Shown here: positions 8,521-60,794 of the stretch, piece after piece
Layout of the letters: every line of letters starts with the position of its first letter
How positions within the stretch are numbered: position 1 is the stretch's first letter
Assembly (NCBI RefSeq): GCF_034372165.1
Contig: NZ_CP139698.1
Span: 2,170,001 to 2,234,000, forward strand
Direction: 5' to 3'
DNA: 64,000 nucleotides
DNA from: Christiangramia sp. OXR-203
Lineage (GTDB): Bacteria > Bacteroidota > Bacteroidia > Flavobacteriales > Flavobacteriaceae
Notes under the pieces: generated by a model
Seen by the model: only the letters and a program-made list of their open reading frames with translations
Told to the model about the DNA's origin: nothing
Databases searched by the model: none
Made by a program: the position numbers and the translations under genes

Positions 8521-8525
8521 AATAT

Positions 8526-8552
8526 AAAAAGGAACCAATCGGTTCCTTTTTT
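8526..8552 (+). terminator. Rho-independent terminator of purL
   Basis: AAAAAGGAACC (8526-8536) and GGTTCCTTTTT (8541-8551) form a perfect stem around AATC, ending in a T tract. Confidence 0.9.
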
Positions 8553-23022: not shown

Positions 23023-23117
23023 ATATCTTAAAAATCTTATAAATCAATGGCTGTCTTAAATGATTTTCGGAAATTTAATAAAAATCAATTTCGCGACCAC
23101 GGCATTTATAATTAATT

Positions 23118-45600: not shown

Positions 45601-45956
45601 TCGATATTGGAAACTCCTGTGGTCCAGCCTTCAGAATTATCAATATTACATTGAGCTGTTACATCCTGAAATTTAAAATTTCCAAGATTGAGATAGAGTT
45701 TATCTGATGCTTCATTAGAGGTGAAATATAGATCTGGAAGTCCATCATTATTATAATCTGCAGTAGCCACTCCAGCGCCATTATAGTAATATAAATAATT
45801 AAGGATGTTTAGGTTAGAGTCCGGATCAAGCTGATTGCTGAAATCAATTCCGGTTGATTCACTGCTTTTTTTAAGAAAAAGAGTTTGCTTTTTCTCACAG
45901 GCTGAGAACAGGATAAAGATAAAAATGAAATATGTAAGCCGAATGGCTTTTTCCAT
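42672..45956 (-). CDS. CRTAC1-like FG-GAP/ASPIC-UnbV lipoprotein (first copy)
   Basis: First gene of the five-gene operon after SusD. From the ATG at 45956 it is 1094 residues with lipobox LFSAC (MEKAIRLTYFIFIFILFSAC). A start at 46049 would add 31 residues but would lie within the terminator and -7 element, so it is rejected. FG-GAP blades (DYNNDGLPDLYFT, DINNDGLMDLYLS, DYDLDGDLDLFLL) precede an ASPIC/UnbV domain at about 505-580 (NFLKIDLQGPDRNRFGIG); later blades include DLNGDGQMDLVLG, DHDNDGDLDILVV and DFDNDGDLDLVAA. Located just after a SusC/SusD pair, so a surface glycan-binding role alongside the transporter is inferred. Confidence 0.9.
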   Translation of the reverse strand: MEKAIRLTYFIFIFILFSACEKKQTLFLKKSSESTGIDFSNQLDPDSNLNILNYLYYYNGAGVATADYNNDGLPDLYFTSNEASDKLYLNLGNFKFQDVTAQCNIDNSEGWTTGVSNIDINNDGLMDLYLSKVAGILGLQGHNLLYINKGVDDDGNLKFKESSKEYGLDFSGFSTQSVFLDYDLDGDLDLFLLNHSIHPNRNYGRGNKRSSFDTRAGDRIFRNDGGTFVDVSEETGIFQGPTGYGLGVAVGDLNNDNYPDIYVGNDFFENDYVYINQQDGTFQDLITSSPDSFGHTSHYSMGNDIADMNNDGLADIVSLDMLPEDLHTYKTSGLEFPFQTYSNYLRNGFAPQYMQNTLHMNRGDLKFSEVAYLSGIAATEWSWSALFADFDNDLHQDLFITNGIKGATNNMDYIKFISTEEIQQQISTGEKIDLENLTKRLPEKKVNNYIFQNSGDQKFTNASEEWLPAQKSFSHGSVYVDLDNDGDLDLVTNNTEDAAFIFENTTTESNFLKIDLQGPDRNRFGIGAKVTVHTKEVTQMKEHYLTRGYLSSLAPGLHFGLGSNTVVDSVTVKWYDGSKTVLGKVNANQKVTVKYSASEKNRKETAKLPAYEIANDSILNYKHVEQASLDFNRQPLSLFAYSNPGPTMATGDLNGDGQMDLVLGGGKSQPLQVFFQNDETFEKFETPAFEADAISENTGIALLDHDNDGDLDILVVSGGNEFRSGDAIQPKLYVNEDGQFRKDSNNFNGISLNASGVSVADINNDGFQDVFISSSIKPHEFGSTSEQFFFINDKGKFRDATRKYFKELPGSVQTSKWVDFNRDGYLDVILAGHWNAPEIYLNNSGKSFSRMDSNLSDYQGWWNDLELADFDNDGDLDLVAANWGLNSRLTASREEPVNLYLNDFDGNATSDPILTYFYKGEETVFASKDELDQQLPYLKKRFNTYEQFANAELSDIFPKEKLEEAQLKNVTELASCYFENLGNGTFKKHELAFEAQVSVMMSIEVSDYNADGLQDILLAGNNYEISTQLGRLDASHGVLLLNDGNANFTVSKEFPAISGSARDIGKICVGNQEYVVITRNDDTPVILKSTNKNE

Positions 45957-46000
45957 AATAAATCGCTTTGAGGAGCAGGTTGAAAGATAAATAATTTTAA

Positions 46001-46008
46001 CAAATGTA
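46001..46008 (-). promoter_or_regulatory. -7 promoter element of the CRTAC1-like operon
   Basis: On the minus strand this reads TACATTTG, an exact TAnnTTTG match, 44 bases before the ATG at 45956 and just downstream of the SusD terminator. No TTG is found at -33. It suggests the operon can be transcribed apart from susCD. Confidence 0.5.
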
Positions 46009-46012
46009 TAAC

Positions 46013-46042
46013 AAAAAAAGAGGGCTAAAATAGCCCTCTTTT
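46013..46042 (-). terminator. Rho-independent terminator of the SusC/SusD operon
   Basis: On the minus strand AAAAGAGGGCTA pairs perfectly with TAGCCCTCTTTT around TTT and is followed by three more T. It is the strongest terminator in the window and lies 18 bases after the SusD stop. Confidence 0.92.
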
Positions 46043-46060
46043 CATTCAATTTTTAAAAGT

Positions 46061-47665
46061 TTAGTAACCCTCGTTCTGAGTTAAATTCGGGTTAGATATA
46101 ATCGCCGACGCCGGGATTGGGTATAATGTTCTGTAATCTTCAGAAGCATCTTTATAACCCCATGCTTCAGTAAACTTACCAAAACGGATCAGGTCATTTC
46201 TTCTCCAGAATTCAGAGTAAAGTTCTCTACCACGTTCATCGATAATATCTTCAGAAGTAACTGAACTAAGAGGAGAAGCCTTACGTATCGTTCTAAGTTC
46301 ATTCACCAATTCTGTAGCGTCTCCACCACCGCCGTTAAGTGCAGCTTCAGCTTTCATGAGATGAGCATCCGCATATCTGAAAACGATCTTGTGCCCGGTG
46401 AAAGAACCATTCGTTGGGTGGTACTTGATCACACGAACCCCGGTAGACTGACCATTACCTAAAAGTCCAGGAAGTTCTTTTGTAAAACTAAGATCTTTAC
46501 CAGCTTCAGCCTGTAGTTTAGAACCATCGATCCCGTATTGCTGTCCTATTAACATCCCAAATCCTATTTGAGAACCATCAAGCATACCATCACCATCTTC
46601 ATCAATCTCGTCTGCTACACCATCACCATCAAAGTCAACTCCTACAGGCGATCCTTCCGTTGGAACGTATCCTCTACGCTCTTCCTGACCATCTCCCATA
46701 AAATTTGAATTTGGATCACCTTCGAAAAGGTCATAAAATTCAGCTAGAGTGGTAAAACCATTCCAACCACCACCACCATTCGCTGGTGTATTCTGGTTAT
46801 AGTGTAATGTATGCCACATAACGTTTCCAACTCCGGAATTTGTATACCAGATAGTTTCATTATCAAGTTTTGGAGAGAAGATTCCAAAGTAACCTTCTTC
46901 CAGACCAAAGCCCATAGCACTAATTGCGTCCACATTGCTAATCACCTGTTGCATGTCCCCAGCGTCTGGTGAACCCGTCCCTGTATAGATATGCTTATTA
47001 AGATACATTTTAGCAAGCATAAAGTGAACTGCTGCTTTAGTCGCACGATTCGTAGCTTCTGTTCCTGGCGAGGCCGTAGCAATATTCGCCGCAGCTGTAT
47101 TCAGATCTTCCATGATAAAGTCGAAAGCTTCTGCTCTGGACATTACCGTAGGATCTACTTCAATTCCTTCATCTGGTCCTCTAAACGGCACCTGACCGTA
47201 AAGATCCATCACCCAGAATGTAGCGAAAGCTCTTAAAAACCTTGCTTCTGCTTCCTGTTGTGGAGTAGCATTACTCCTCTCGTCAATGATTTCAGTAGTT
47301 CTGAAAATGATAGAGTTCTGCTCATTCCAGGTATCTCTTACATGCTGGTGAATTGGAGACCAGCTGTGCTGATGTAATGTTCTCCAAACACCATTATCAC
47401 CCCAGTCTGTTCCTCTGGTGGGCACCAGGAATTCATCTGTACTTACCTCGTTAAGAGCGTAAAGGTTAGCCTGATTTTCTAATTGTCCCCGTACAGCATC
47501 ATAGATACCGCTCAAGGTCGCATCTACGTCACCAACTCCGGTAAATTCTCCGGTCTGGTTTACGATGATCGAATCTGTTTCCTCAATTTCCAGGTCTGTA
47601 CATGCACTAAAGACGAACAGTGCGCAGGCTGGAATTAAAGTAAAATACTTTCTATTTTTCATCAT
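46061..47665 (-). CDS. SusD/RagB-family surface lipoprotein
   Basis: The surface lid and glycan-binding partner of the SusC transporter. From 47665 it is 534 residues (MMKNRKYFTLIPACALFVFSAC, lipobox FSAC); an ATG at 47689 would overlap susC by 14 bases and add residues before the signal. Family features are visible: the N-terminal helices (EFTGVGDVDATLSGIYDAVR), TPR-like helices with EARFLRAFATFWVMDLYGQVP, and the late KAEAALNGGG plus RGRELYSEFWRRNDLIRFGKF and LYPIPASAI motifs of SusD. An Asp-rich insertion (DFDGDGVADEIDEDGDGM, about residues 350-370) looks like calcium-binding loops. The substrate cannot be read from sequence. Confidence 0.95.
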   Translation of the reverse strand: MMKNRKYFTLIPACALFVFSACTDLEIEETDSIIVNQTGEFTGVGDVDATLSGIYDAVRGQLENQANLYALNEVSTDEFLVPTRGTDWGDNGVWRTLHQHSWSPIHQHVRDTWNEQNSIIFRTTEIIDERSNATPQQEAEARFLRAFATFWVMDLYGQVPFRGPDEGIEVDPTVMSRAEAFDFIMEDLNTAAANIATASPGTEATNRATKAAVHFMLAKMYLNKHIYTGTGSPDAGDMQQVISNVDAISAMGFGLEEGYFGIFSPKLDNETIWYTNSGVGNVMWHTLHYNQNTPANGGGGWNGFTTLAEFYDLFEGDPNSNFMGDGQEERRGYVPTEGSPVGVDFDGDGVADEIDEDGDGMLDGSQIGFGMLIGQQYGIDGSKLQAEAGKDLSFTKELPGLLGNGQSTGVRVIKYHPTNGSFTGHKIVFRYADAHLMKAEAALNGGGGDATELVNELRTIRKASPLSSVTSEDIIDERGRELYSEFWRRNDLIRFGKFTEAWGYKDASEDYRTLYPIPASAIISNPNLTQNEGY

Positions 47666-47675
47666 TAATTTTTTT

Positions 47676-50600
47676 TTAAAATTTAGCATTTAATCCAAAT
47701 GTTACCGTTCTAGGTCTAGGGAATGCTGTATAATCGATACCAGCTGTTGGTAAACCATTTAGTGACTTATCTACACTAACTTCCGGATCAAGACCTGAAT
47801 AGTCTGTGATCACGAAAAGGTTTTGACCGTTTACATAAACCCTTAGATTTTCTACGAAAGAGTCTTCAGCAAGAGGAATAGTATAACCAAGACTTGCATT
47901 TTGTAATCTTAAGAAATCACCTTTTTCAAGAAATCTTGTAGATACATCTGGAGCATTCGCTGGAAGTTCTCCGTTTGTAAGTACATCTGTAGTTACGTTT
48001 CTACCACTGTTTATACTACCTGCAGTAAAGAATGCATTGGCAGTATTGTTATAGATATAGTGACCAAACTGTCCTGCAAAGAAAATTGAGGCATCAAAGT
48101 TTCCAAATTCAGCTCTGGTATTAATACCAAGGTTTGTAGTTGGAAGTGCACTCTTATCAACGAACTGCTGCTCATCTCCATTAGGATAGATAGAAAGACC
48201 ATTTTCATCAAATCCACCGAACTCTCTTAAGTAGTAAGAAAACAATGGACGCCCTTCAGCTAATAGCTGAGCAAAAGCTCCGGTAAGACCCTGACCTGAA
48301 ATTTGAGCCGTCTGGATCAGACCATCAAAATCCTGAAGTTCATTATCGTTATAAGCTACGTTGAAACCAAAGTTCCAGAAGAAATTGTCATTATCAATGA
48401 TATCATAATCAATTGCGAATTCAACACCCTTATTAATTACACTAGCATCAAGATTCTGGAAAGTGAAAGGTACCGGTGAAGGCTGAGCCTGTTCTGCCAC
48501 AAGAAGAAGATCCTGTGTATCCTTATAGTAAAAATCAAGACTACCAGATAATCTATCATTCATGAATCCATAATCGATCCCGACATTAGCCTGAGCAGTT
48601 TCTTCCCATTTCAATCCTGGGTTAGCGAATCCTGCAGTTCCAAGTCCACCACCATTTATGTTTCCACCATTATCAATTCCGTAGCCATTAAGCACACGAC
48701 GAATAGTAAAGTTTCCATATCCAAGACCTTCCTGGTTACCAGTGATACCATAACCAAGTCTAAGTTTCAAGGTAGATAAAGCGTCTGGAGAAAAATCTTC
48801 CTGGTCGATCTTCCATGCAAATGCACCTGAAGGGAAGTAACCATATCTATTGTCTGGACCAAATCTTGAAGATCCATCTGCTCTCATGGTAAATGTAAAT
48901 AAGTATTTATCCATCAAAGAATAGTTCAACCTGGTAAAGAATGATTGAATTTCATCTGTATTATCGTAAGTTCCACTTGTAAGTACTCTGGTATTGATTC
49001 CACCTGGACCGTTTACAGATTCTCCTAATACAGGACCATTGTCTGTAAATAATCTATCTACAAGCAAGCCATCAGCATTGTAACGTAACTGGTTAAAACC
49101 ACCATTTATCGCTCCATATAACGCATCAATATCGCTTCTTAATTCTGAAGACATTGCCCCATTATCTGTGGATACAAATCCAAAACCATTAGCATATCTA
49201 CCTTCTCTCTGGAAATCCTGGAAAGAATAACCAACTAAAGCTGAAAAAGTAGAGTTATCAAACTGCTTATCGTAGTTCACTACAAACTCCATCAATCTGT
49301 TCGTAGCTTCAAGATCGTTTAACTGAGCACGACCATTTCCTGGTGATCCATTATCAAAGTTGATCACATTTCCTGAAACTGAAGCATTCTGCTCAGATTC
49401 AGCTCTGTCATAACCTAAAGTTACTTTTGCATTCAGGTTTTCAAGAATGTCATAATCTGCAGAAAGGTTTAAAAGGATTCTGTCGGTTTCTGTTTCATTC
49501 TTAACATACTCAAGAATTTCTAATGGGTTTCTACTGTTTCCAACCGGGTCAAAACCTACTTCAGCAGGCCATGTTGGATTTGCGTAATACGCTGCTCCCA
49601 GCAAGTCACCTGTAGATGGACCATCATTACCAATAGGCGCCGCTTCATCCTGTACATTGGAAAGTGTCAATTGTAAACCAAGATTTAACTTATCATCAAA
49701 GAATCTTTGATTAGCATTTAAACGACCTGTTAGACGTTCCATTTTTGAGTTCTCAACAACACCTTCAATTCCATTATATCCTAAAGATACACGAAGGTTA
49801 CCGGAACTATAACTATTCATATAAGATAAAGCATGGTTTTGAGAGATCGCAGTTCTTAGGATCTGATCCTGCCAGTCTGTATCTGCACCAAAATCCTGTG
49901 CCTCTCTGTCTCCACCATATTGCTCTACAGCATCCAGGAATTGTTCAGCGTTTAATAGATCAAATTCATTTGCTGCATTTGCAATACTTACAGAACCATC
50001 ATAAGTAAATGAACCGCCCTGGGCTCCTCTACCAGACTTGGTCTGTATAATTACCACCCCATTCGCACCTCTGGAACCATAAATTGCAGTTGCAGACGCA
50101 TCCTTTAAAACACTGATGCTTTCAATATCGCTAGGGTTTAAGAAGTTTAATGGGTTTCTTGAAGAGCTAGACCCAATTCCAAGGTCACCACCACCTGCAG
50201 CGGTAGCATCACCAGCTAATGGTACACCATCCACAACGAATAATGGATTGTTATTAGATCTTACTGAAGTTGTTCCTCGAATACGAAGCGCAATCCCAGC
50301 TCCAGGTTCACCACTTGCCTGCGTAATCTGTACACCAGCCGTTTTACCCTGAATTAATTCTTCCGGTGAAGAAATATTACCTTTATTAAATTCTTCGGAT
50401 GTTACCGAAGCAACTGCACCGGTCGCATCCCTTACAGTTGTGGTTCCATAACCAATTAAAACTACCTCTTCCAGTTCAGAAGCATCTGTTTCAAGGTTTA
50501 CATCGATAGTGTTACGACCGCTAACCTTTATCTCCTGTGTTACATAACCAACGAAGCTATACATAAGTATAGCGTCTGCCGGAACATTATTAATGGTGTA

Positions 50601-50774
50601 ATTACCATCAAAATCTGTAGTGGTACCCGTCGATGTTCCCTTGATGGAAACAGTTGCACCGGGCAGCGGACCACTCTCATCTGTCACTGTTCCGGTTACA
50701 GTTTGCGCTTTTGCCATACCGAAGGTAATAAGTGCTCCGATGAACAAAAGGCTCCTGAAAATCAATTTTCTCAT
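47676..50774 (-). CDS. SusC/RagA-family TonB-dependent outer membrane transporter
   Basis: Outer membrane channel of 1032 residues that imports oligosaccharides or other polymers with energy from TonB. A signal peptide (FGMAKAQ) precedes a carboxypeptidase-regulatory-like domain (TVTGTVTDESGPLPGATV, about 25-105), the plug domain with EEVVLIGYGT and the segment PLFVVDGVPL through IYGSRGANGVVIIQTK (about 115-230), and a 22-strand barrel ending in FGLNAKF with terminal Phe. There is no N-terminal signalling (STN) domain, so it is not itself an anti-sigma signal device. It is followed by susD after 10 bases. Together they mark a polysaccharide utilisation-type locus. Confidence 0.96.
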   Translation of the reverse strand: MRKLIFRSLLFIGALITFGMAKAQTVTGTVTDESGPLPGATVSIKGTSTGTTTDFDGNYTINNVPADAILMYSFVGYVTQEIKVSGRNTIDVNLETDASELEEVVLIGYGTTTVRDATGAVASVTSEEFNKGNISSPEELIQGKTAGVQITQASGEPGAGIALRIRGTTSVRSNNNPLFVVDGVPLAGDATAAGGGDLGIGSSSSRNPLNFLNPSDIESISVLKDASATAIYGSRGANGVVIIQTKSGRGAQGGSFTYDGSVSIANAANEFDLLNAEQFLDAVEQYGGDREAQDFGADTDWQDQILRTAISQNHALSYMNSYSSGNLRVSLGYNGIEGVVENSKMERLTGRLNANQRFFDDKLNLGLQLTLSNVQDEAAPIGNDGPSTGDLLGAAYYANPTWPAEVGFDPVGNSRNPLEILEYVKNETETDRILLNLSADYDILENLNAKVTLGYDRAESEQNASVSGNVINFDNGSPGNGRAQLNDLEATNRLMEFVVNYDKQFDNSTFSALVGYSFQDFQREGRYANGFGFVSTDNGAMSSELRSDIDALYGAINGGFNQLRYNADGLLVDRLFTDNGPVLGESVNGPGGINTRVLTSGTYDNTDEIQSFFTRLNYSLMDKYLFTFTMRADGSSRFGPDNRYGYFPSGAFAWKIDQEDFSPDALSTLKLRLGYGITGNQEGLGYGNFTIRRVLNGYGIDNGGNINGGGLGTAGFANPGLKWEETAQANVGIDYGFMNDRLSGSLDFYYKDTQDLLLVAEQAQPSPVPFTFQNLDASVINKGVEFAIDYDIIDNDNFFWNFGFNVAYNDNELQDFDGLIQTAQISGQGLTGAFAQLLAEGRPLFSYYLREFGGFDENGLSIYPNGDEQQFVDKSALPTTNLGINTRAEFGNFDASIFFAGQFGHYIYNNTANAFFTAGSINSGRNVTTDVLTNGELPANAPDVSTRFLEKGDFLRLQNASLGYTIPLAEDSFVENLRVYVNGQNLFVITDYSGLDPEVSVDKSLNGLPTAGIDYTAFPRPRTVTFGLNAKF

Positions 50775-51058: not shown

Positions 51059-51703
51059 CTATAAAGACATCGCTTTTCCGCCACCAAGTTCACTAACCGG
51101 GCCGCAAGGGATGTACTCTCCAGGAATTGGATCATACCACATAACATTCTCACCTACTTCTTCGCTGTTCTTCCATGCCCAGATTGCCATATCTCTAACA
51201 TTATTTAGGTATGCATAAGCTCCAGCATCTGAATCCATTTCAACATCAGGCTCCTGATTTTGAGCATCCTGAGTTTCGGTATTACGCTTCATGTATTTCT
51301 CCCGATCTGCCGGAGTCGCTTTCAGATACTTTTTAAGTATTAGATCATATTCTTCTTTAGTTCCATTATCCTGAGATTTTTCAAATTCTTTTTCAAAGGA
51401 TTTCGCAAAAGCATCTGCAGATCGATTAAATTCTTCAGCCCTTTCCGGCTCAGCTACGGTGTCCATATAAGAATCAATGAACTGTGCAATATTCAGGTCT
51501 GAAGCTCCTGGCGTATCTGTTGCGGGTAAAATTGTATCAAGAACCTGCTTTAATGCTAGTCCGTTTGAAGCACTTAGGTACACGGGTTGCCAGTCATAAT
51601 CAGGTTCATTCTTGCAACTTTGCAAAAGACTTAATACCGAAGGCCCTACGACAAAAACTCCTGCACCCAGTCCGAGATTTTTTATTAATTGTCTTCTATT
51701 CAT
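51059..51703 (-). CDS. Gluconate 2-dehydrogenase subunit 3-like protein, Tat-type small subunit of the GMC enzyme
   Basis: A 214-residue protein with a Tat-like signal: MNRRQLIKNLGLGAGVFVVG with paired Arg, and a cysteine (LLQSC) that could be lipidated. The mature part resembles subunit 3 of gluconate dehydrogenases (LKQVLDTILPATDTPGASD near residue 48). In characterised glucoside 3-dehydrogenases of this type the small subunit carries the export signal and takes the folded flavoprotein through the Tat system. Here the partner, encoded 11 bases upstream, has no signal peptide, which fits. It is the last gene of the two-gene operon, with a terminator after it. Confidence 0.85.
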   Translation of the reverse strand: MNRRQLIKNLGLGAGVFVVGPSVLSLLQSCKNEPDYDWQPVYLSASNGLALKQVLDTILPATDTPGASDLNIAQFIDSYMDTVAEPERAEEFNRSADAFAKSFEKEFEKSQDNGTKEEYDLILKKYLKATPADREKYMKRNTETQDAQNQEPDVEMDSDAGAYAYLNNVRDMAIWAWKNSEEVGENVMWYDPIPGEYIPCGPVSELGGGKAMSL

Positions 51704-51714
51704 GATTAAAACTA

Positions 51715-53415
51715 TTATGCATTAGACTTTTTAAAGTTTTTGGAAGCATGATCTGCCGCTCTTGCAGTCATGGCCATATAGGTCAAGGAAGGGTTCTGGC
51801 AACCGGCAGAAGTCATAAATGCACCATCGGTTACATATACGTTTTTAGCTTCGTGAACCTGGTTGTTTCCATTAAGTACAGATGTCTTTGGATCTCTACC
51901 CATTCTGGCCATTCCCATTTCGTGAATTCCAAGACCTGGAGCCCCAATATCATCGTAACCACTAACATCTTTAAATCCAGCTTTTTCAAGCATCTGTACT
52001 GCCTGATCCACCATATCCTTACGCATCTTCAGCTCATTCTCTTTAAACTCGGCATCAAAAGTTACGGTTGGTAGCCCCCATTCGTCCAGTTTATTGTAAT
52101 CAAGACTCATTTTATTTTCGTGATATGGTAGAGTTTCTCCAAAGCCCATCAATCCCATGTTCCAGCCTCCTGGTTCTGTTACCGCTTTCTTAAGGTCTTC
52201 ACCAAAGCCTGCTTCCGCAACGCTATCTGTCCAATTGGTACGGCTGGCTCCACCCTGGTAACCATAACCTCTTAAGAAATCAACTTCACTATTACCGTTA
52301 AGGTTTCTGAATCTGGGCAGATATATTCCATTAGGCTTTCTTCCTTTATAGTACATGTTCTGGAAACCATCATAATTTCCGGAAGCTCCTGCTTTAAAAT
52401 GGTGATCCATCACATTATGCCCCAGTTCTCCTGAGTCATTCCCCATTCCCTCAGGAAAACGATCAGATTTTGACTGCATAAGGATACTAGTAGACGCCAC
52501 GGCTGAAGCACATAAGAAAACGACATTGGCTTTAAACTCCATAGCCTCTCCACTTTCAGTATCTACAACTTTTACTCCAGTAGCAAGTTTGGTATCTGCA
52601 TCATACAGCACTTCGCTCACGATGGAATTTGGTCTTAAGGTCATGTTCCCGGTTCTTTCCGCAGCAGGTAAAGTAGAAGAATTACTGCTAAAATACCCTC
52701 CATAAGGACAACCACGAATACATCTATTTCTAAACTGACATTTAGAACGGCCTTCGAACTTCTTATCACCGGTAATATGGGCAACACGACCGGAAGTCAT
52801 TACCCGACCGTTGAAATTTTCAGAAATACTTTGTCTAAGATGATCCTCCACACAATTTAATTCCATTGGTGGTAAGAACTGACCATCTGGCAATTGACTC
52901 AAACCTAACTTCTCACCGCAAACTCCTATATAAGATTCTACATAATCGTACCAGGGTGAAATATCCTTATAACGAATAGGCCAGTCCACTCCTACTCCGT
53001 CATTTTTATTCGCTTCAAAATCAAGATCGCTTAATCTGTAACTATGTCTTCCCCACATGATCGATCTACCTCCAACGTGGTATCCACGCATCCAGTCAAA
53101 TCTTTTAGTTTCATTATAGGGATGCTTAATATCATCTACAAACCAGTGTTTGCTAGGTTCAGCAACAGTATAGCCGGTTCTTGCCTGCTTGAGTTGTCGT
53201 TGTTTCTCTTCACGTGGAACCTGTCCTTTAAATTTGTAATCCCATGGATCATCATTCATAGTTGGATAGTCCTTGACATGCTCTACCATACGACCACGCT
53301 CCAGAACAAGTGTTTTAAAACCCTTCTCTGTGAGCTCTTTAGCTGCCCATCCACCACTAATACCTGTTCCAACAACTATGGCATCATAGCTGTCATTTTC
53401 ATAATAGTTATTCAC
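51715..53415 (-). CDS. GMC-family FAD oxidoreductase, candidate glucoside 3-dehydrogenase catalytic subunit
   Basis: A 566-residue flavoprotein: FAD-binding motif YDAIVVGTGISGGWAAKEL at residues 10-28, a cysteine-rich stretch CQFRNRCIRGCPYGGY near residue 240, and the C-terminal GMC domain with GIHEMGMARMG and VTDGAFMTSAGCQNPSLT, which carries the catalytic His/Asn region. It has no signal peptide, so export with the Tat-type small subunit (51059) is likely. The family oxidises sugar alcohols, gluconate or glycosides; the neighbours (isomerase/epimerases, Gfo/Idh/MocA enzyme, DUF1080) favour oxidation of a glycoside at C3. Electrons probably pass to a cytochrome encoded elsewhere. Confidence 0.88.
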   Translation of the reverse strand: MNNYYENDSYDAIVVGTGISGGWAAKELTEKGFKTLVLERGRMVEHVKDYPTMNDDPWDYKFKGQVPREEKQRQLKQARTGYTVAEPSKHWFVDDIKHPYNETKRFDWMRGYHVGGRSIMWGRHSYRLSDLDFEANKNDGVGVDWPIRYKDISPWYDYVESYIGVCGEKLGLSQLPDGQFLPPMELNCVEDHLRQSISENFNGRVMTSGRVAHITGDKKFEGRSKCQFRNRCIRGCPYGGYFSSNSSTLPAAERTGNMTLRPNSIVSEVLYDADTKLATGVKVVDTESGEAMEFKANVVFLCASAVASTSILMQSKSDRFPEGMGNDSGELGHNVMDHHFKAGASGNYDGFQNMYYKGRKPNGIYLPRFRNLNGNSEVDFLRGYGYQGGASRTNWTDSVAEAGFGEDLKKAVTEPGGWNMGLMGFGETLPYHENKMSLDYNKLDEWGLPTVTFDAEFKENELKMRKDMVDQAVQMLEKAGFKDVSGYDDIGAPGLGIHEMGMARMGRDPKTSVLNGNNQVHEAKNVYVTDGAFMTSAGCQNPSLTYMAMTARAADHASKNFKKSNA

Positions 53416-53456
53416 AATTCATTGATTTATCGTTGAAAAAATAGTTCGAAGTCTAC

Positions 53457-53464
53457 CAAATATA
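53457..53464 (-). promoter_or_regulatory. -7 promoter element of the GMC oxidoreductase operon
   Basis: On the minus strand this reads TATATTTG, an exact TAnnTTTG match, 41 bases upstream of the ATG at 53415. The 149-base gap up to 53565 serves both divergent operons, so co-regulation is possible. On the plus strand a TAATTTTA near 53478 is a weaker candidate. Confidence 0.5.
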
Positions 53465-53564
53465 TAAATTAATGACTATAATTTTACATCTTTAAAAAAA
53501 AGACTACATTTAATTTTCAATCTATCAATGGCATTAAAGCCATACAACCTAAGCATACCAAAAA

Positions 53565-54563
53565 ATGAATTTTAGATCACTTAGAGCCTGCAGTCTCTTT
53601 CTTGCTATTAGCCTTTCCCTATCCTTAACCTCTTGTAAAGATCAAACTGAATCCAGCAAAGAGAATGAATCCCAGGAAGTTGCAGAAAAAACAAATGATT
53701 CTTTATTCTTCAAGATTTCACTAGCACAATGGTCCCTTCACCGTCCAATTTTTGAAGGCAGCCTGAACCCAATGGATTTTGCCGAAAAATCCAGTGAAAT
53801 GGGTTTTGAAGGGGTTGAATATGTTACAAGTTTTTATGCTGAAAAAGTAAAGGATTCCAAAACTCCTGAAGAGGATTTACAAAAAGTACTGGACACACTT
53901 AAAAACAGAAGTGAAGAATTTGGTGTTCAAAACTTACTACTTATGATCGATGGCGAAGGAGATCTTGCAACCAATGACTCTGTAGCAAGAAACCAGGCAG
54001 TAGAAAATCATAAAAAATGGGTGGATGCCGCTCAATTTCTGGGTTGTCATTCTATAAGAGTGAATCTGTTTGGTGACGAGGAAAGAGAGAACTGGAAAAA
54101 TAATTCTATAGATGCCCTCAAAAAGCTATCTGAATATGCCGCAACCAAGGATATTAATGTATTAGTAGAAAATCACGGATACTTATCTTCAGATGCAGAT
54201 CTTCTGGTTAGTGTAATGGATGCCGTTAACATGGAAAACTGCGGAACTTTGCCAGATTTTGGGAATTTCTGTTTAAAACGTGAAGGCGGTGCCAGATGGC
54301 AGGCAGAATGTATCGAAGAATTCCCAAAATATGAAGGCGTGGAGAAATTGATGAAACATGCAAAAGCTGTAAGTGCAAAATCTTACACCTTCGACATGGA
54401 AGGCAATGAAGAAGTTATCGATTATAAAAAGATGCTACAAATCGTTAAAGATGGTGGCTATACAGGCTTTATCGGTATTGAATATGAAGGTACAGACATG
54501 GATCCTGAAAAAGGGATCAATGCCACCAGAGATCTACTTATCAAAGCAGGAAAGCAAATTTAA
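53565..54563 (+). CDS. Sugar isomerase/epimerase-family lipoprotein (xylose isomerase-like TIM barrel)
   Basis: A 332-residue exported lipoprotein: signal FLAISLSLSLTSC with lipobox LTSC near residue 24. The mature part is an AP endonuclease 2/xylose isomerase-like TIM barrel, with VLVENHGYLSSDADLLV and GFIGIEYEGTD showing the metal-ligand Glu positions at the strand ends. Relatives act as isomerases, epimerases or, in keto-sugar pathways, on 3-keto glycosides. Periplasmic location next to the GMC enzyme and the DUF1080 lipoprotein suggests it works on the oxidised sugar there. It is first of a five-gene operon with gaps of 23, 10, 1 and 10 bases. Confidence 0.87.
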   Translation: MNFRSLRACSLFLAISLSLSLTSCKDQTESSKENESQEVAEKTNDSLFFKISLAQWSLHRPIFEGSLNPMDFAEKSSEMGFEGVEYVTSFYAEKVKDSKTPEEDLQKVLDTLKNRSEEFGVQNLLLMIDGEGDLATNDSVARNQAVENHKKWVDAAQFLGCHSIRVNLFGDEERENWKNNSIDALKKLSEYAATKDINVLVENHGYLSSDADLLVSVMDAVNMENCGTLPDFGNFCLKREGGARWQAECIEEFPKYEGVEKLMKHAKAVSAKSYTFDMEGNEEVIDYKKMLQIVKDGGYTGFIGIEYEGTDMDPEKGINATRDLLIKAGKQI

Positions 54564-54586
54564 ACCAATTCCAACAAGTCCTATTT

Positions 54587-55825
54587 ATGAGCAAATTAGT
54601 CCGCTTCCAACTATCCTTAATGATGTTCTTAGAATTTTTCATTTGGGGTGGCTGGTTCGTTACACTGGGAACCTATCTCGGTTACAATTTAGATGCAACA
54701 GACGTTCAGATCTCAACCGCTTTTTCTACGCAATCCTGGGGAGCTATCATCGCACCTTTTATTGTAGGAATGATTGCCGACAGGTTTTTTAACGCTGAAA
54801 AGATCCTCGGAATTTTACATCTTACCGGTGCAATTTTGATGTACTTCATGTATCAAAGCACAGATTTTGCTGAATTCTATCCATTGGTACTTGCTTACAT
54901 GATCGCCTATATGCCAACACTGGCTCTTGTTAACTCGGTTAGCTTTAACCAGATGAAAGATCCCGCAAAAGAGTTCTCCTTTATACGCGTTTTTGGGACA
55001 ATTGGATGGATCATAGCAGGGCTGGTTATCAGTTATATTTTCTTCTGGGATTCTCCGGAATCCAGACAGGAAGGAATGCTGAAAAACACATTTTTGATGG
55101 TAAGTATTGCTTCAGCATTTTTAGGAATTTTCAGTTTTACGCTTCCAAAAACACCACCATCTGCAGATAAATCTAAAAAGGTAAGTGTAGTAGAAACACT
55201 AGGACTGGATGCGTTGGGATTACTGAAAGACAGAAATTTTCTCATGTTCTTCCTGGCATCTGTACTAATATGCATACCGCTAGCCTTTTATTATCAAAAT
55301 ACAAATCCATTCCTTTCTGAAGTTGGAGTAGAAAACCCAACCGGTTTAATGACCATCGGGCAGGCATCTGAAGTTTTATTCCTGTTACTACTACCCTTCT
55401 TCTTTAAGAGATTTGGTTTCAAATTGACCATTATCGCTGGAATGCTGGCCTGGACCCTGCGTTACCTGCTTTTCGCTTATGGAAATTCCGGAGAACTTAT
55501 ATTTATGCTCATTACCGGGATCGCCTTACATGGGATCTGTTATGATTTCTTTTTCGTTTCGGGACAGATCTATACAGATTTTAAAGCCGGTTCAAAATAT
55601 AAAAGTTCAGCACAGGGATTGATCACTCTCGCTACCTATGGCGTGGGAATGTTGATAGGTTTCTATGTGGCTGGTTTGATCACCAATGCTTACGTTACCG
55701 GAAATAAAATGCATGATTGGGAAACTATTTGGGTATATCCTGCGGCATTTGCATTTGGAGTCCTGCTCCTTTTTGCCTTATTTTTCAGGAACGAAAAGAT
55801 CGACAAAAAAGATATTGAAATTTAA
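54587..55825 (+). CDS. NupG-like MFS transporter (nucleoside:H+ symporter family)
   Basis: A 412-residue membrane protein with about 12 helices. The start MSKLVRFQLSLMMFLEFFIWGGWFVTLG and the later STQSWGAIIAPFIVGMIADRF are typical of the nucleoside:H+ symporter group (NupG/XapB). In Bacteroidota such transporters frequently sit beside Gfo/Idh/MocA dehydrogenases and sugar isomerases and are thought to carry sugars rather than nucleosides. Here it would import the free (keto) sugar produced in the periplasm. A nucleoside substrate is not excluded by sequence. Confidence 0.87.
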   Translation: MSKLVRFQLSLMMFLEFFIWGGWFVTLGTYLGYNLDATDVQISTAFSTQSWGAIIAPFIVGMIADRFFNAEKILGILHLTGAILMYFMYQSTDFAEFYPLVLAYMIAYMPTLALVNSVSFNQMKDPAKEFSFIRVFGTIGWIIAGLVISYIFFWDSPESRQEGMLKNTFLMVSIASAFLGIFSFTLPKTPPSADKSKKVSVVETLGLDALGLLKDRNFLMFFLASVLICIPLAFYYQNTNPFLSEVGVENPTGLMTIGQASEVLFLLLLPFFFKRFGFKLTIIAGMLAWTLRYLLFAYGNSGELIFMLITGIALHGICYDFFFVSGQIYTDFKAGSKYKSSAQGLITLATYGVGMLIGFYVAGLITNAYVTGNKMHDWETIWVYPAAFAFGVLLLFALFFRNEKIDKKDIEI

Positions 55826-55835
55826 ACATTGAATT

Positions 55836-56975
55836 ATGAGTAAGATCAAACTCGGAATATTAGGTGGCGGTGAAGAATCTCTTATTGGAATTCTGCACAG
55901 AGTCGCGGCCAATATGTTCGACCAGTTTGAAATTGTAGGTGGTGTATTTGATACCAATCATCAAAAAAGTATTGATTTTGGTGGAAAACTTCAGCTTGAT
56001 ACCTCAAGAGTCTATCGTGATCTAGACCACCTTGTAGATGAAGAAGCAAAGCTTTCAGAAGAAGATAGAATGCAGGTGGTTTCGGTACTCACTCCTAATT
56101 TTCTGCATTTCCCAATGGCAAAACAGTTGCTTGAGAATGGATATAATGTGATTTGCGAAAAACCATTGACAACCACTTTCGAAGAAGCTAAGATCCTGAA
56201 TGAACTTCAGAAGAAAAATAATAAGATTTTCGCGGTAACTTACACTTACACTGGATATCCAATGATCAGGCAGATGAAAACGATGATCGCAAATGGTGAA
56301 ATAGGTGAAATTCAGAAAGTAGATGTACAATACTACCAGGGATGGATCAATCCTTTAATTCATGATAAGGAGAAACGAGCGTCCACATGGAGACTAGATC
56401 CGGAAAAGTCCGGAATTAGCTGTTGTATTGGTGACATTGGGACACACGCATTTAATATGGCGGAGTACGTTACCGGAATGCAGGTGAAAAATATCCTATC
56501 AGACCTTAATTATCTATATGAAGATAATCCTATGGATATTGACGGAACCGTTCTTTTACGCTTTTCTGAAAAGATCAAAGGTGTTCTAAGAGCAAGCCAG
56601 ATCGCTACAGGTGAAGAGAATAATTTTTCAGTCAAGATATATGGAGATAAAGGCGGTTTAAAATGGGAACAGGAAAATCCGAATTATCTCTATTTACTGA
56701 AGGAGGATCAACCACTACAAGTCCTTAAACCAGGTCATGCTTATAACAGCGACTTCTCTCTTGAAGGCACTAAACTTCCTGCAGGACATCCTGAAGGGAT
56801 TTTTGACTCTATGGGGAATATCTATTATGGAGTTGCGCAGGCAATAAAAGATAACAGCAAATTTGAAGGAGCTTATCCTAAATTACATGATGGTTACAGA
56901 GGGATGCATTTTATAGAACAAACAGTAGCTTCCCACAAACAGGGTAATGTTTGGGTAAGCATGGAAGAAGAATAA
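55836..56975 (+). CDS. Gfo/Idh/MocA-family NAD(P)-dependent oxidoreductase
   Basis: A 379-residue cytoplasmic enzyme. The N-terminal Rossmann domain starts IKLGILGGGEESLIG, and the family's EKP motif is in ICEKPLTTTFEEA near residue 110 (Lys is catalytic in relatives). The C-terminal alpha/beta domain carries WRLDPEKSGISCCIGDIGTHAFN near residue 190, where the family's DxxxH pair lies. Relatives oxidise or reduce sugars at C3, among other positions. In this operon the most natural role is reducing an imported 3-keto sugar to the parent sugar, or the reverse. The gap to the next gene is one base. Confidence 0.92.
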   Translation: MSKIKLGILGGGEESLIGILHRVAANMFDQFEIVGGVFDTNHQKSIDFGGKLQLDTSRVYRDLDHLVDEEAKLSEEDRMQVVSVLTPNFLHFPMAKQLLENGYNVICEKPLTTTFEEAKILNELQKKNNKIFAVTYTYTGYPMIRQMKTMIANGEIGEIQKVDVQYYQGWINPLIHDKEKRASTWRLDPEKSGISCCIGDIGTHAFNMAEYVTGMQVKNILSDLNYLYEDNPMDIDGTVLLRFSEKIKGVLRASQIATGEENNFSVKIYGDKGGLKWEQENPNYLYLLKEDQPLQVLKPGHAYNSDFSLEGTKLPAGHPEGIFDSMGNIYYGVAQAIKDNSKFEGAYPKLHDGYRGMHFIEQTVASHKQGNVWVSMEEE

Positions 56976-56976
56976 T

Positions 56977-58032
56977 ATGATGAAGACAATAAAAGGACCG
57001 GCAGTTTTTCTGGCTCAGTTTATGGACGATCATGCGCCTTTCAATTCCCTGGAAGGTTTGTGCAAATGGGCTGCAGACTTAGGCTATAAAGGAATTCAGA
57101 TCCCTACCTGGGAAACCAGGCTTATAGATCTTAAAAAGGCTGCTGAAAGTAAAACATATTGCGATGAACTTGCAGGAACCGTAGGATCTTATGGACTTGA
57201 GATCACCGAACTAAGCACACACCTGCAGGGACAGCTAGTTGCTGTACATCCTGCTTATGATTTAATGTTCGATAATTTTGCTCCAGATGATTATAAGAAT
57301 AATCCAAAAGCAAGAACCGAATGGGCAGTAGATCAATTAAAATATGCGGCTAAGGCCAGTAGAAATTTAGGAATTGATGTTCATGGAACCTTTAGTGGAG
57401 CTTTGTTATGGCACACCTTTCACCCATGGCCTCAGCGACCTGAAGGACTTGTGGAAATGGGTTTTAAAGAACTTGCAGACAGATGGATGCCAATCCTGAA
57501 TACTTTTGATGAACAGGGAGTTGACGTTTGTTATGAGATACATCCTGGAGAGGACCTGCATGATGGGGTGACCTTTGAACGCTTTCTGGAGGCTACCAAT
57601 AATCATAAACGAGTGAATATTCTTTATGACCCAAGCCATTTTGTTTTACAGCAACTGGATTACCTGGAGTACATAGATCATTACCATGAGTTCATAAAAA
57701 TGTTCCATGTCAAAGATGCTGAATTTAAGCCCACGGGCAAAAAAGGAATGTTTGGTGGCTATGGGGACTGGAAAGATCGCGCTGGAAGATACAGGCATCC
57801 AGGCGACGGACAGGTAGATTTTAAAAATGCCTTTTCTAAGCTAACTGAATACGGCTGTGACGTATGGGCAGTTCTGGAATGGGAATGCTGTATTAAAAGC
57901 CCTGAACAAGGTGCCAGAGAAGGTGCTCCATTTATTCAGAAGCATATTATTGAAGCAACTCAAAAGCGTTTTGATGATTTTGCAGGTTCAGAAATCGATG
58001 AAAATAAACTCAGGAATATTTTAGGAATTTAA
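56977..58032 (+). CDS. Sugar phosphate isomerase/epimerase-family TIM barrel enzyme (cytoplasmic)
   Basis: A 351-residue protein without signal peptide; the start may be either of two adjacent ATG codons. It is an AP endonuclease 2/xylose isomerase-like TIM barrel. Likely metal ligands are visible: Glu in CYEIHPGEDLHD, Asp and His in NILYDPSHFVLQQLDY and KMFHVKDAEF, and Glu in AVLEWECC. The gene pairs with the Gfo/Idh/MocA gene immediately before it, a frequent combination in Bacteroidota sugar catabolism. It differs from the first gene of the operon by being cytoplasmic, so the two isomerases may work on the same sugar on opposite sides of the membrane. Confidence 0.9.
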   Translation: MMKTIKGPAVFLAQFMDDHAPFNSLEGLCKWAADLGYKGIQIPTWETRLIDLKKAAESKTYCDELAGTVGSYGLEITELSTHLQGQLVAVHPAYDLMFDNFAPDDYKNNPKARTEWAVDQLKYAAKASRNLGIDVHGTFSGALLWHTFHPWPQRPEGLVEMGFKELADRWMPILNTFDEQGVDVCYEIHPGEDLHDGVTFERFLEATNNHKRVNILYDPSHFVLQQLDYLEYIDHYHEFIKMFHVKDAEFKPTGKKGMFGGYGDWKDRAGRYRHPGDGQVDFKNAFSKLTEYGCDVWAVLEWECCIKSPEQGAREGAPFIQKHIIEATQKRFDDFAGSEIDENKLRNILGI

Positions 58033-58042
58033 ACACATAACA

Positions 58043-58792
58043 ATGAAAAGATTAGCAATTATAGGCTGTTCAATATTAGCGCTTACTGCGTGTAAGAACG
58101 AAAATAAAGAAACCGAAGCTGAGAATATGGACACTCAGGAGTCGGTTACCATGCAGGAAGAAGAGCAGGAATGGCAGGAACTATTTAATGGTGAAGATCT
58201 TCAGGGCTGGAAAGCATATAATAAAGACAGCATCTCTTCCCAGTGGAAGGTGGAAAATGGTGTGATCGCATTTGAACCTTCAGCTGAAGAAAGAGAATCT
58301 TCTGAAAATCTTATCACTGAAGATGAATTCGGGAACTTCGAAATGAGTTTTGAATGGAAAATTTCCGAAGGTGGAAATAGTGGTGTGATGTGGGCAGTTC
58401 AGGAAGACGAGAAATATGCTGAACCTTATTTAACAGGACCGGAAATTCAGGTACTGGACAATCAAAAGCATCCTGATGCTAAAAATGGTCCAAACCGAAC
58501 TGCAGGAGCTCTTTACGATATGGTTCCTCCAAGTGAAGATGCAACCAAACCTACAGGAGAATGGAACAAAGAGACAATTTATATCAACCACGAAGAGAAT
58601 AAAGGATGGGTAGAATTAAATGGAACTCGCGTTACTGAATTTCCTGTACATGGAGAAAAATGGGAAGAAATGGTGAAAAACTCAAAGTTTAGTGAATGGG
58701 AAGGTTTTGGCACTAATCGTAGCGGCCATATTGCCTTACAGGATCATGATGACAAGGTTTGGTATCGTAACATAAAGATTAAGGAATTATAA
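58043..58792 (+). CDS. DUF1080 lipoprotein, candidate 3-keto-glycoside hydrolase/lyase
   Basis: A 249-residue lipoprotein (lipobox LTACK, about residue 16) followed by an acidic spacer and a DUF1080 concanavalin-like beta-sandwich (about 45-249): LFNGEDLQGWKAY at the start, FEMSFEWKISEGGNSGVMWAVQ and GPEIQVLDNQKHPDAKNG in the middle, SGHIALQDHDDKVWYRNIKIK at the end. These are the standard motifs of the domain. DUF1080 proteins have been shown in other bacteria to cleave 3-keto glycosides after a dehydrogenase has oxidised C3, and the operon supplies that chemistry. It closes the operon, with a terminator 20 bases on. Confidence 0.88.
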   Translation: MKRLAIIGCSILALTACKNENKETEAENMDTQESVTMQEEEQEWQELFNGEDLQGWKAYNKDSISSQWKVENGVIAFEPSAEERESSENLITEDEFGNFEMSFEWKISEGGNSGVMWAVQEDEKYAEPYLTGPEIQVLDNQKHPDAKNGPNRTAGALYDMVPPSEDATKPTGEWNKETIYINHEENKGWVELNGTRVTEFPVHGEKWEEMVKNSKFSEWEGFGTNRSGHIALQDHDDKVWYRNIKIKEL

Positions 58793-58886: not shown

Positions 58887-60098
58887 ATGAACAAGAAGGA
58901 TATAAGCTTTAAAAATGCAGATGGAAAAGAACTGAAGGGAGTTCTGGAATTACCACTTAATGAAACCCCTACAAACTTCGCGATCTTTGCCCACTGTTTT
59001 ACCTGTAACAAAAATTTTCACGCTCCTACGAATATTAGCCGAACGCTGGCATCGCATGGCTACGGAGTTCTTAGATTCGATTTTACGGGCCTGGGAGATA
59101 GTGAAGGAGACTTTGAAGACACCAACTTTTCAGGAAATGTAGAAGATCTAATTTCAGCAGCGAAGTACCTGGAAGAAAATTACCATGCTCCCAGTATTAT
59201 GATTGGACATTCACTGGGAGGAGCTGCAGCCTTATTTGCCTCAAAACAGCTCGAAAGTATTCGCTGCATGGTCACTATAAATGCACCTTCCAATCTTACC
59301 CACGTAAAATCCCATTTCAAATCCAATATGAAGGAAATTGAAGAACAGGGTTATGCCGAAGTGAATATTGGCGGTAGAGAATTCAGGATCAAACAACAAT
59401 TTGTGAAAGACCTGGATGATAATGAGGATGCAACAGCGCTTCAAGAAATTAGAAAAGCTTTGCTAATATTACATTCTCCACAAGATAACATTGTGTCCAT
59501 AGATCATGCTGAAGATTTGTATAGATCTGCATGGCATCCAAAAAGCTTCGTTAGCCTGGACGGAGCAGACCATATGCTGAGCGATAAAAGTGACTCATTA
59601 TATACAGGAAACCTGATTGCTACCTGGGCTGCACGTTATATAGATTCCGAAGAAAAGGAAGAATTAAGTACAGATCATGAGGTAGTCGCTAACCTTGGTG
59701 AACATGGCTATACTACCCAGATTAGAACAGGGAATCATAGTTTTATTGCAGATGAACCTGCTAAAGTTGGTGGCGCAGATCTTGGTCCTACTCCTTACGA
59801 GTTGGTTTCGGCGGGACTTGCCGCCTGTACCTCCATGACCATTCAAATGTATGCCCGCCGCAAGAACTGGAGTATACAGAATGTAGAAACGCATGTAAGT
59901 TATTCGAAAAAACATGCTGATGACTGCGAAAATTGCGAAGATGCCGGTGCTAAAATTGATACTTTCGAAAGAGAGATCTCGATCAAAGGTGATCTTGATG
60001 AAAAGCAACTGGAACGTGTGCTGCAGATCGCAGATAAATGCCCGGTCCATAAAACCTTATCCTCTACAGGGAAAATAAATTCAAAATTGCGTGATTAA
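58887..60098 (+). CDS. Fusion of alpha/beta hydrolase and OsmC-like peroxidase domain
   Basis: A 403-residue two-domain protein. Residues about 1-250 are an alpha/beta hydrolase: nucleophile elbow GHSLGGAAALFA (Ser near residue 112) with the acid Asp around the DNIVSIDHAED region and His in SLDGADHMLSD. Residues about 270-400 are an OsmC/Ohr-type domain: VGGADLGPTPYELVSAGLAACTSMTIQM, with the resolving or peroxidatic Cys in AACTS and the second Cys in ADKCPVHKTL. OsmC domains reduce organic hydroperoxides, so the protein may hydrolyse an ester and detoxify its peroxide, or the hydrolase may deliver substrate. The same fusion occurs in other bacteria. It has no signal peptide. Confidence 0.9.
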   Translation: MNKKDISFKNADGKELKGVLELPLNETPTNFAIFAHCFTCNKNFHAPTNISRTLASHGYGVLRFDFTGLGDSEGDFEDTNFSGNVEDLISAAKYLEENYHAPSIMIGHSLGGAAALFASKQLESIRCMVTINAPSNLTHVKSHFKSNMKEIEEQGYAEVNIGGREFRIKQQFVKDLDDNEDATALQEIRKALLILHSPQDNIVSIDHAEDLYRSAWHPKSFVSLDGADHMLSDKSDSLYTGNLIATWAARYIDSEEKEELSTDHEVVANLGEHGYTTQIRTGNHSFIADEPAKVGGADLGPTPYELVSAGLAACTSMTIQMYARRKNWSIQNVETHVSYSKKHADDCENCEDAGAKIDTFEREISIKGDLDEKQLERVLQIADKCPVHKTLSSTGKINSKLRD

Positions 60099-60200: not shown

Positions 60201-60794
60201 ATGAAACGTATTAGTTTATCTCTAGTTCTTTGCGCCGGATTAGTTTTCACAGGATGTAAGAACGACAAGAAAGAAAAAGAAATGGATGACCAGAACGAGA
60301 CAGAAATGTCTTCAGAAATGGACAGCCAGAAAAATGAAGAAAAAAAGAAAGCAAAAGTTACTTTGCAATCTGTTAGCAACTCAGCCCTTAGTGGTAATGT
60401 AGTATTTACGCAAGAAGATGGTGAGGTTTCCATGACTGCAATTATCAGTGGTCTTGCTGAAGGAACTCACGCTATTCATATTCACGAAAAAGGAGACTGT
60501 TCAGCAGCAGATGGTAAATCTGCCGGTGGACACTGGAACCCAACTGGTGAAGACCATGGAAAATGGGGTGATCCAGAAGGTTTCCATAAAGGAGATATAG
60601 GAAATTTCGAAGTTGATGAGAATGGAAATGGAACCGTTAATCTTACTACCGATGAGTGGTGTCTTGATTGTGGTGACAAGAATAAAGATCTTGCAGGAAA
60701 AGCAGTGATCGTTCATGACGGTGTAGATGATTATACATCTCAACCTTCAGGAGCAGCCGGAACCAGAGTTGGTTGTGGAGTTATTGAAATGTAA
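60201..60794 (+). CDS. sodC: Cu,Zn superoxide dismutase lipoprotein
   Basis: Converts superoxide to oxygen and hydrogen peroxide in the periplasm. The 197 residues start with a lipoprotein signal (LVLCAGLVFTGCKN) and a charged spacer. The enzyme domain has the full ligand set: HAIHIHEKGDCSA (two copper His and the first disulfide Cys), SAGGHWNP (bridging His), then EDHGKWGDPEGFHKGDIGN with the remaining zinc His and Asp, and KAVIVHDGVDD with the last copper His. The closing motif AGTRVGCGVIEM holds the second disulfide Cys. The electrostatic loop reads SQPSGAAGTR, with the active-site Arg. It is a single gene with a terminator. Confidence 0.95.
   Translation: MKRISLSLVLCAGLVFTGCKNDKKEKEMDDQNETEMSSEMDSQKNEEKKKAKVTLQSVSNSALSGNVVFTQEDGEVSMTAIISGLAEGTHAIHIHEKGDCSAADGKSAGGHWNPTGEDHGKWGDPEGFHKGDIGNFEVDENGNGTVNLTTDEWCLDCGDKNKDLAGKAVIVHDGVDDYTSQPSGAAGTRVGCGVIEM

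Follow-up and report, generated by a model that had tools for sequence, protein, structure and literature searches.

The divergent locus and its proteins

We analysed 64,000 nt of Christiangramia sp. OXR-203 (contig NZ_CP139698.1), a stretch that we call the window and whose positions serve as coordinates throughout. It belongs to a single-contig genome of 3.395 Mb and contains a candidate glycoside-degrading gene cluster at 51059-58792. Seven open reading frames (ORFs) were confirmed there, with main Pfam matches that all lie above the cut-offs (Table 1). A preliminary description of this DNA had listed the same seven genes at exactly these positions, and Pfam agreed with the family that it gave for each. 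It had also depicted a compact plus-strand operon diverging from a minus-strand pair, an arrangement that is borne out by gaps of 23, 10, 1 and 10 bases within the operon, 11 bases within the pair and 149 bases between the two. Export signals were assessed by eye and by pattern.

Table 1. Features of the locus in window positions
Feature	Position	Strand	Remark
SusD + SusC pair, 3' of small subunit	46061..50774	-	Pfam/NCBIfam matches
Gluconate_2-dh3 small subunit, probable Tat-exported lipoprotein	51059..51703	-	PF13618, E 1.8e-20
GMC flavoprotein, probable glycoside 3-dehydrogenase catalytic subunit	51715..53415	-	PF05199 + PF00732; GTG start
Divergent intergenic region, 149 bases, candidate promoters	53416..53564		
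TIM-barrel (AP_endonuc_2) lipoprotein; candidate extracytoplasmic 3-keto-glycoside eliminase or keto-sugar epimerase	53565..54563	+	
NupG-like (Nuc_H_symport) major facilitator superfamily (MFS) carrier, probable keto-sugar/glucal importer	54587..55825	+	PF03825, 386 bits
Gfo/Idh/MocA oxidoreductase, probable 3-keto-glucose reductase	55836..56975	+	PF01408, PF22725
2-hydroxy-3-keto-glucal hydratase by sequence, cytoplasmic TIM barrel (AP_endonuc_2)	56977..58032	+	
DUF1080/PF06439 lipoprotein, probable extracytoplasmic 3-keto-glycoside lyase or hydrolase	58043..58792	+	

The most informative gene of the cluster is that of the hydratase. The best solved relative of its product was 8ro4, whose molecule name is "2-hydroxy-3-keto-glucal hydratase" (E 1.7e-162, 66% identity) and which, going by that name, we take to be Agrobacterium AtHYD. 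The genome gave no other hydratase match that reached E 1e-50. On this likeness, the assignment of the second TIM barrel as the enzyme that hydrates the glucal to 3-keto-glucose is well supported, and it replaces the "cytoplasmic isomerase" of the preliminary description. If the protein is a hydratase, the glucal probably enters the cell and the cleavage outside is probably the work of a lyase. The Gfo/Idh/MocA gene adjoins the hydratase gene, and its product, with 3v5n as best solved relative (E 2.9e-90), is probably the 3-keto-glucose reductase.

Relatives of the cluster were collected by a hydratase scan of genome contigs, which gave 80 named loci, the best 80 of at least 580 confirmed matches. 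By record title these are flavobacterial or Bacteroidetes/Bacteroidia, plus one filed as Rokubacteria. We call informative the 61 loci with at least 9 kb upstream and at least 2 kb downstream of the hydratase; the 19 loci with shorter flanks were left out. A gene was scored absent where tblastn failed to reach 60 bits, and some absences may conceal diverged copies.

Among solved structures, the GMC protein came closest to the large subunits of fructose and FAD-glucose dehydrogenases (lowest E 4e-33). Its C-x5-C-x3-C motif aligned with the fructose dehydrogenase large subunit and was present in 90 of the 92 GMC ORFs of the fetched loci, the window's included, with a following Pro in 88 of the 92; the remaining two ORFs (L024, L075) carry unidentified residues at the cysteine places. 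In fructose and FAD-glucose dehydrogenases these three Cys hold a 3Fe-4S cluster. By relatives and motif, the GMC protein looks like an iron-sulfur FAD dehydrogenase that would feed a respiratory acceptor, and not like the oxidase of the "flavin oxidase" route proposed earlier. With the window's GMC protein as query, the genome gave a single match at E 1e-5. A second GMC gene, approximately 62-66% identical to that of the window, lies just upstream of the hydratase in 17 of the 80 named loci (e.g. L063 at 8170 and L045 at 8162), which looks like a duplication of the dehydrogenase to serve a different substrate.

A twin-arginine translocation (Tat) pattern was found within the first 40 residues in none of the 92 GMC ORFs, and no N-terminal signal was seen by eye in that of the window, in agreement with the preliminary description. 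Its small-subunit partner is different in this respect. R3, R4 and C30 were invariant in all 44 aligned sequences (window's included; chosen from 66 ORFs found), and pattern searches recovered an RR motif and a lipobox in 64/64 small-subunit ORFs from loci up to L111. The lipobox of the window protein reads LLQS-C. The Tat signal noted previously is thus retained and refined to that of a lipoprotein: the small subunit is probably exported by Tat and lipid-anchored, and would both carry the GMC subunit and fix it to the membrane.

A cytochrome-like ORF was found near the cluster in 5 of the 61 informative loci. The genome contains four Cytochrome_CBB3 places, all outside the window, this being the only cytochrome family searched. 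We considered these as possible acceptors; the check covered three of the four places, the fourth being a 455-residue frame near 2989 kb. One lies beside a sugar dehydrogenase of the GSDH type, and nothing ties it to the locus. Others resemble, by eye, a cbb3-type subunit and an alternative complex III run, and neither is tied to the locus. Near 2394 kb of the same genome, a GSDH-type sugar dehydrogenase gene is followed by a small cytochrome c gene (L126), which constitutes a second sugar oxidation route.

Two lipoproteins are candidates for the cleavage step. The DUF1080 protein matched PF06439 over the whole profile (1-187 of 187; E 1.7e-50, 172 bits vs a cut-off of 26.8) and was the sole match to this family in the genome at E 0.001. 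PF06439 is now named 3-keto-disaccharide hydrolase; gut DUF1080 proteins are reported to have lyase activity. The TIM lipoprotein shares its fold with the C-glycoside deglycosidases DgpB/C and CGD (7exz, 8qvc) and retains the catalytic His together with three of the four metal positions. At the remaining position S270 aligns with the DgpC His taken as third metal ligand, in 38/38 aligned sequences (window's included; from 66 ORFs found), so that the set of four ligands is incomplete. The ligand roles were taken from PMC10628242 and matched by order in sequence.

A crude pattern found lipobox-like N-termini in 58/65 TIM lipoproteins and 55/66 DUF1080 proteins. By a crude pattern, 16/65 TIM lipoproteins bear a Tat-like signal (L025, L032 and L034-L036 among them), and others bear a Sec lipoprotein signal, an apparent switch of export route inside one family. 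The lipobox Cys is followed by K-N-E-P-D, K-D-Q-T-E and K-N-E-N-K in the three lipoproteins of the cluster. Surface-export signals of the types C-X-K-(D/E)2 and SDDFE are described in PMC5080379; the three starts fit neither, and the SusD protein (T-D-L-E-I) comes nearer. We did not retain surface exposure for the cluster lipoproteins, and their starts hint weakly at a periplasmic orientation.

The NupG-like carrier is probably the importer of a keto sugar or of the glucal. In L052, the one locus inspected among those without a NupG-like match, a different MFS protein (7591-8817) occupies the place of the NupG-like gene, which suggests that the importer was replaced. An additional MFS gene of a similar kind is present in L063 (5239-6477). 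Judged from its neighbourhood, the SusCD pair is a possible outer-membrane entry for the glycoside. SusC matches were found in 4/61 informative loci and SusD matches in 2/61, and the pair stands beside the small subunit in the order of the window only in L002, Christiangramia sediminis.

Conservation and genomic surroundings

All seven genes occurred together in 45 of the 61 informative loci. The preliminary description had named a lack of conservation of the two operons as a unit as a result that would speak against it; within Flavobacteriaceae this is not what we observed. Individually, GMC and Gfo matches were present in 60 loci each, the small subunit in 59, the TIM lipoprotein and DUF1080 in 55 each, and the NupG-like carrier in 50, leaving 11 loci where its match is missing. 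The small subunit is missing in L025 because the stretch ends inside its GMC gene. Small subunit and hydratase lie on opposite strands in 53 of the 59 informative loci that have both, which makes the divergent arrangement more than chance. The nearest named relative found was C. sediminis, with a hydratase 89% identical, although records very near the genome itself were possibly omitted. L057, the locus filed as Candidatus Rokubacteria, encodes an 81% identical hydratase in flavobacterial gene order and is probably a mis-binned flavobacterial contig.

We also surveyed the family with one genome per genus, 199 in all (E limits 1e-50 for the hydratase, 1e-20 for the TIM lipoprotein and 1e-100 for GMC). 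The hydratase was found in 101, the TIM lipoprotein in 102 and GMC in 107. Both hydratase and GMC were present in 97 genomes, only the hydratase in 4, only GMC in 10 and neither in 88 (Fisher p 2e-39, uncorrected for kinship). The two genes lie within 10 kb of each other in 86 of the 94 genomes for which both places were printed, a count that omits four genomes with a GMC match and no printed place. Hydratase and TIM lipoprotein are within 10 kb in 90/96 genomes.

Beyond the family, the hydratase was detected in 57 of 296 Bacteroidota genomes with a completeness of at least 90%. From these 57 we selected 15 loci of other Bacteroidota families, and in 6 of them a cytochrome adjoins the hydratase. 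Related clusters are located on Hymenobacter and Xanthomonas sacchari plasmids, in both cases with an annotated cytochrome. A Halomonas plasmid record matches GMC, small subunit, DUF1080, NupG-like carrier, hydratase and Gfo, some in pieces, and a Croceicoccus record holds a related cluster in which no DUF1080 was seen.

Around the cluster, the minus strand continues beyond the small subunit with SusC, SusD and FG-GAP/UnbV genes. The whole minus-strand run at 34698-50774 comprises the SusCD pair, three proteins of the FG-GAP/UnbV_ASPIC type and a PAP2 protein whose match to vanadium-chloroperoxidase-like enzymes is weak; comparable FG-GAP, PAP2 or SusC/SusD genes are near the cluster in a few relatives (L005, L023, L029, L039, L068, L077). 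On the other side, a plus-strand gene for a fusion of alpha/beta hydrolase and OsmC domains (58887-60098) is followed by a Cu/Zn superoxide dismutase lipoprotein gene (60201-60794). Farther away, at 21226-25331, reading the translations by eye suggests a glycosidase of a GH15 trehalase type (minus strand) that adjoins a fusion of the trehalose-6-phosphate synthase/phosphatase type (plus strand). The divergent gap contains a TATATTTG match at 53457-53464 on the minus strand. Sites of the form TANNTTTG numbered 62 in the window against 66 expected, no excess over chance, and we make no promoter claim from them.

The proposed pathway and its alternatives

We consider it probable that the locus specifies a glycoside pathway of oxidation, elimination, hydration and reduction that is split across the inner membrane. 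A glycoside would enter the periplasm, possibly via the neighbouring SusCD pair. There the GMC protein, exported and anchored by its Tat-lipoprotein partner, would oxidise the sugar at C3, as family and motif suggest, and its electrons would reach the respiratory chain by way of a 3Fe-4S cluster. The DUF1080 lipoprotein, with the TIM lipoprotein as a possible helper or substitute, may then beta-eliminate the 3-keto-glycoside to 2-hydroxy-3-keto-glucal and the aglycone. The glucal would be imported by the NupG-like carrier and hydrated to 3-keto-glucose by the cytoplasmic TIM barrel, the step for which the likeness to a solved hydratase speaks. Finally, the Gfo/Idh/MocA enzyme, a constant neighbour, would reduce 3-keto-glucose to glucose. 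The earlier outline, with oxidation and cleavage outside, import, and reduction inside, fits the sequence evidence; its imported keto sugar gives way to what is probably the glucal.

In its most specific form the pathway would work as a relay across the membrane. The GMC dehydrogenase, exported by Tat and fixed by a lipid anchor, would lack a dedicated cytochrome and deliver its electrons to the general respiratory chain. Two lipoproteins, one of a TIM class short of a metal ligand, would cleave 3-keto-glycosides outside, and the NupG-like carrier would import the reactive glucal itself, to be hydrated and reduced inside. We propose this combination tentatively, as one that is possible and well short of likely.

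Several results weigh against the pathway. The predicted model of the small subunit matched no solved structure, and the GMC protein is only 27-30% identical to seven listed Rhizobium/Agrobacterium GMC proteins, so that orthology with the glycoside 3-dehydrogenase GlycDH is not established; C3 oxidation is predicted from the neighbourhood and from published relatives. As to an acceptor, no CxxCH motif occurs in any window ORF of at least 50 residues, a cytochrome of the Hymenobacter type had 0 matches in the genome, and one of the flavobacterial type had a single weak, partial match. The carrier falls below the NCBIfam nucleoside-permease cut-off (373.8 vs 446.1). The Gfo enzyme is below the NCBIfam equivalog cut-offs of the BT_2158/BT_2159 families (38.1 bits vs 750 and 26.8 vs 650) and of levoglucosan dehydrogenase (102.3 bits vs 650). 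In the 15 loci of other Bacteroidota families a GMC match was nearby in only 5 and a DUF1080 match in 7, and the full set is therefore less constant outside Flavobacteriaceae. Moreover, hydratase and Gfo genes accompany ABC importers in Azospirillum, Sulfitobacter and two Rhizobium plasmid records whose fetched stretches show no annotated GMC; xylAB is also present in the Azospirillum and Sulfitobacter records. Since the pair occurs without an annotated GMC, it is by itself no proof of the outer steps. We read hydratase and Gfo as a conserved cytoplasmic pair with exchangeable suppliers.

Two alternatives concern how the glycoside is cleaved. The same pathway could run with the TIM lipoprotein as the main periplasmic beta-eliminase and DUF1080 in a side role, such as other anomers or binding. 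8BVK, an eliminase of the AtOGE type, was not among the listed structure matches of the TIM lipoprotein; other candidates for the cleavage are present. No informative locus lacks both lipoproteins, except L049, which retains the hydratase only; with five absences each, approximately 0.4 joint absences are expected, and the apparent alternation of the two is therefore uninformative. We regard this division of roles as somewhat unlikely. Less likely still, DUF1080 could be a true hydrolase that yields 3-keto-glucose outside, the hydratase homologue then acting on another enol-keto sugar or scavenging glucal that forms spontaneously. The name now given to PF06439 and the hydrolysis proposed for Caulobacter in PMC9007349 are in line with this, as are the ABC importers and xylAB beside hydratase and Gfo, which indicate that the pair has other suppliers. 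Against it, hydratase and GMC co-occur far above independence, and a DUF1080 match is near the hydratase in 55/61 informative loci. This linkage with GMC and DUF1080 suggests that glucal is a regular intermediate, as in the elimination pathway that we favour.

Finally, the GMC pair could be an ordinary periplasmic dehydrogenase of the gluconate or polyol type, set in a neighbourhood of general sugar catabolism. Its Pfam names are generic and its best solved relatives act on fructose and glucose, but the recurrent linkage to PF06439 and the glucal hydratase in Flavobacteriaceae, other Bacteroidota and Gammaproteobacteria makes this explanation very improbable.

Given that 101 of the 199 family genomes have the hydratase and 97 of those also GMC, non-hydrolytic release of sugars may be common in organisms that are usually read only for glycoside hydrolases. 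Generic names such as isomerase, nucleoside permease and gluconate dehydrogenase subunit hide the pathway. With the hydratase assigned, an ill-defined cluster becomes a series of steps that includes an intermediate one can test for.

Comparison with known systems

LacA and LacC of Caulobacter belong to the same families as the two minus-strand genes of the window, and LacB is a cytochrome. The Caulobacter cluster contains lacABC, DUF1080, a transporter, two epimerases and a reductase, and shows fitness phenotypes on lactose (PMC9007349). The paper also reports similar clusters in other bacteria and leaves the fate of the keto sugar open. Likened by description and not by sequence, the window shares with it the 3-dehydrogenase genes, DUF1080, a transporter, two epimerase-like genes and a reductase, as well as the scheme of periplasmic 3-oxidation by a membrane-bound dehydrogenase and a DUF1080 protein with a putative signal peptide. 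Unlike in Caulobacter, the window has no cytochrome c gene, and one of its epimerase-like genes is assigned here as the glucal hydratase.

In the four-enzyme operon of Agrobacterium, GlycDH oxidises C3, AtOGE eliminates, AtHYD hydrates (an assignment that is preliminary there) and a Gfo enzyme reduces to glucose (PMC10628242). The proteins listed there as expressed include a TAT-pathway signal protein beside GlycDH, and the activity of GlycDH with ferricyanide exceeded that with O2 by at least 100-fold. Such a preference marks a GlycDH-like enzyme as a dehydrogenase rather than an oxidase. A cytochrome c is given as the electron acceptor of a glucoside 3-dehydrogenase of Rhizobium radiobacter in PMC9915066. 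The window shares with the A. tumefaciens pathway the hydratase, a Gfo-family reductase and, at the level of family and Tat-signal partner, a probable flavin glycoside 3-dehydrogenase. However, it has DUF1080 and the TIM lipoprotein and no recognised AtOGE, its cleavage is predicted outside the cytoplasm, and its GMC protein is only distantly related to the rhizobial ones listed.

The levoglucosan pathway of Bacillus smithii (LgdA-LgdB1-LgdB2-LgdC) follows the same four chemical steps, via 2-hydroxy-3-keto-glucal and 3-keto-glucose (PMC7676230). It differs in an NAD-linked first step, and the available text describes no flavoprotein, Tat partner or DUF1080. The FAD/3Fe-4S fructose and glucose dehydrogenases (PDB 7w2j, 6a2u) have the GMC family and the cysteine motif in common with the window protein, which scores only approximately 118 bits and, in contrast to those systems, has no adjoining cytochrome subunit gene. 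The TIM lipoprotein departs from the C-glycoside deglycosidases, its relatives in fold, catalytic His and metal positions, by the Ser substitution, and no gene for a second subunit was recognised in the window cluster.

The literature searched, in which subscription papers were mostly absent, contained no paper on this flavobacterial cluster. As a gene set, it belongs to the kind already known from PMC9007349. To this, our analysis adds the cytochrome gene missing from the cluster, a TIM lipoprotein with an altered metal site, the predicted lipid anchor on the carrier subunit, the assignment of the hydratase and the family-wide count.

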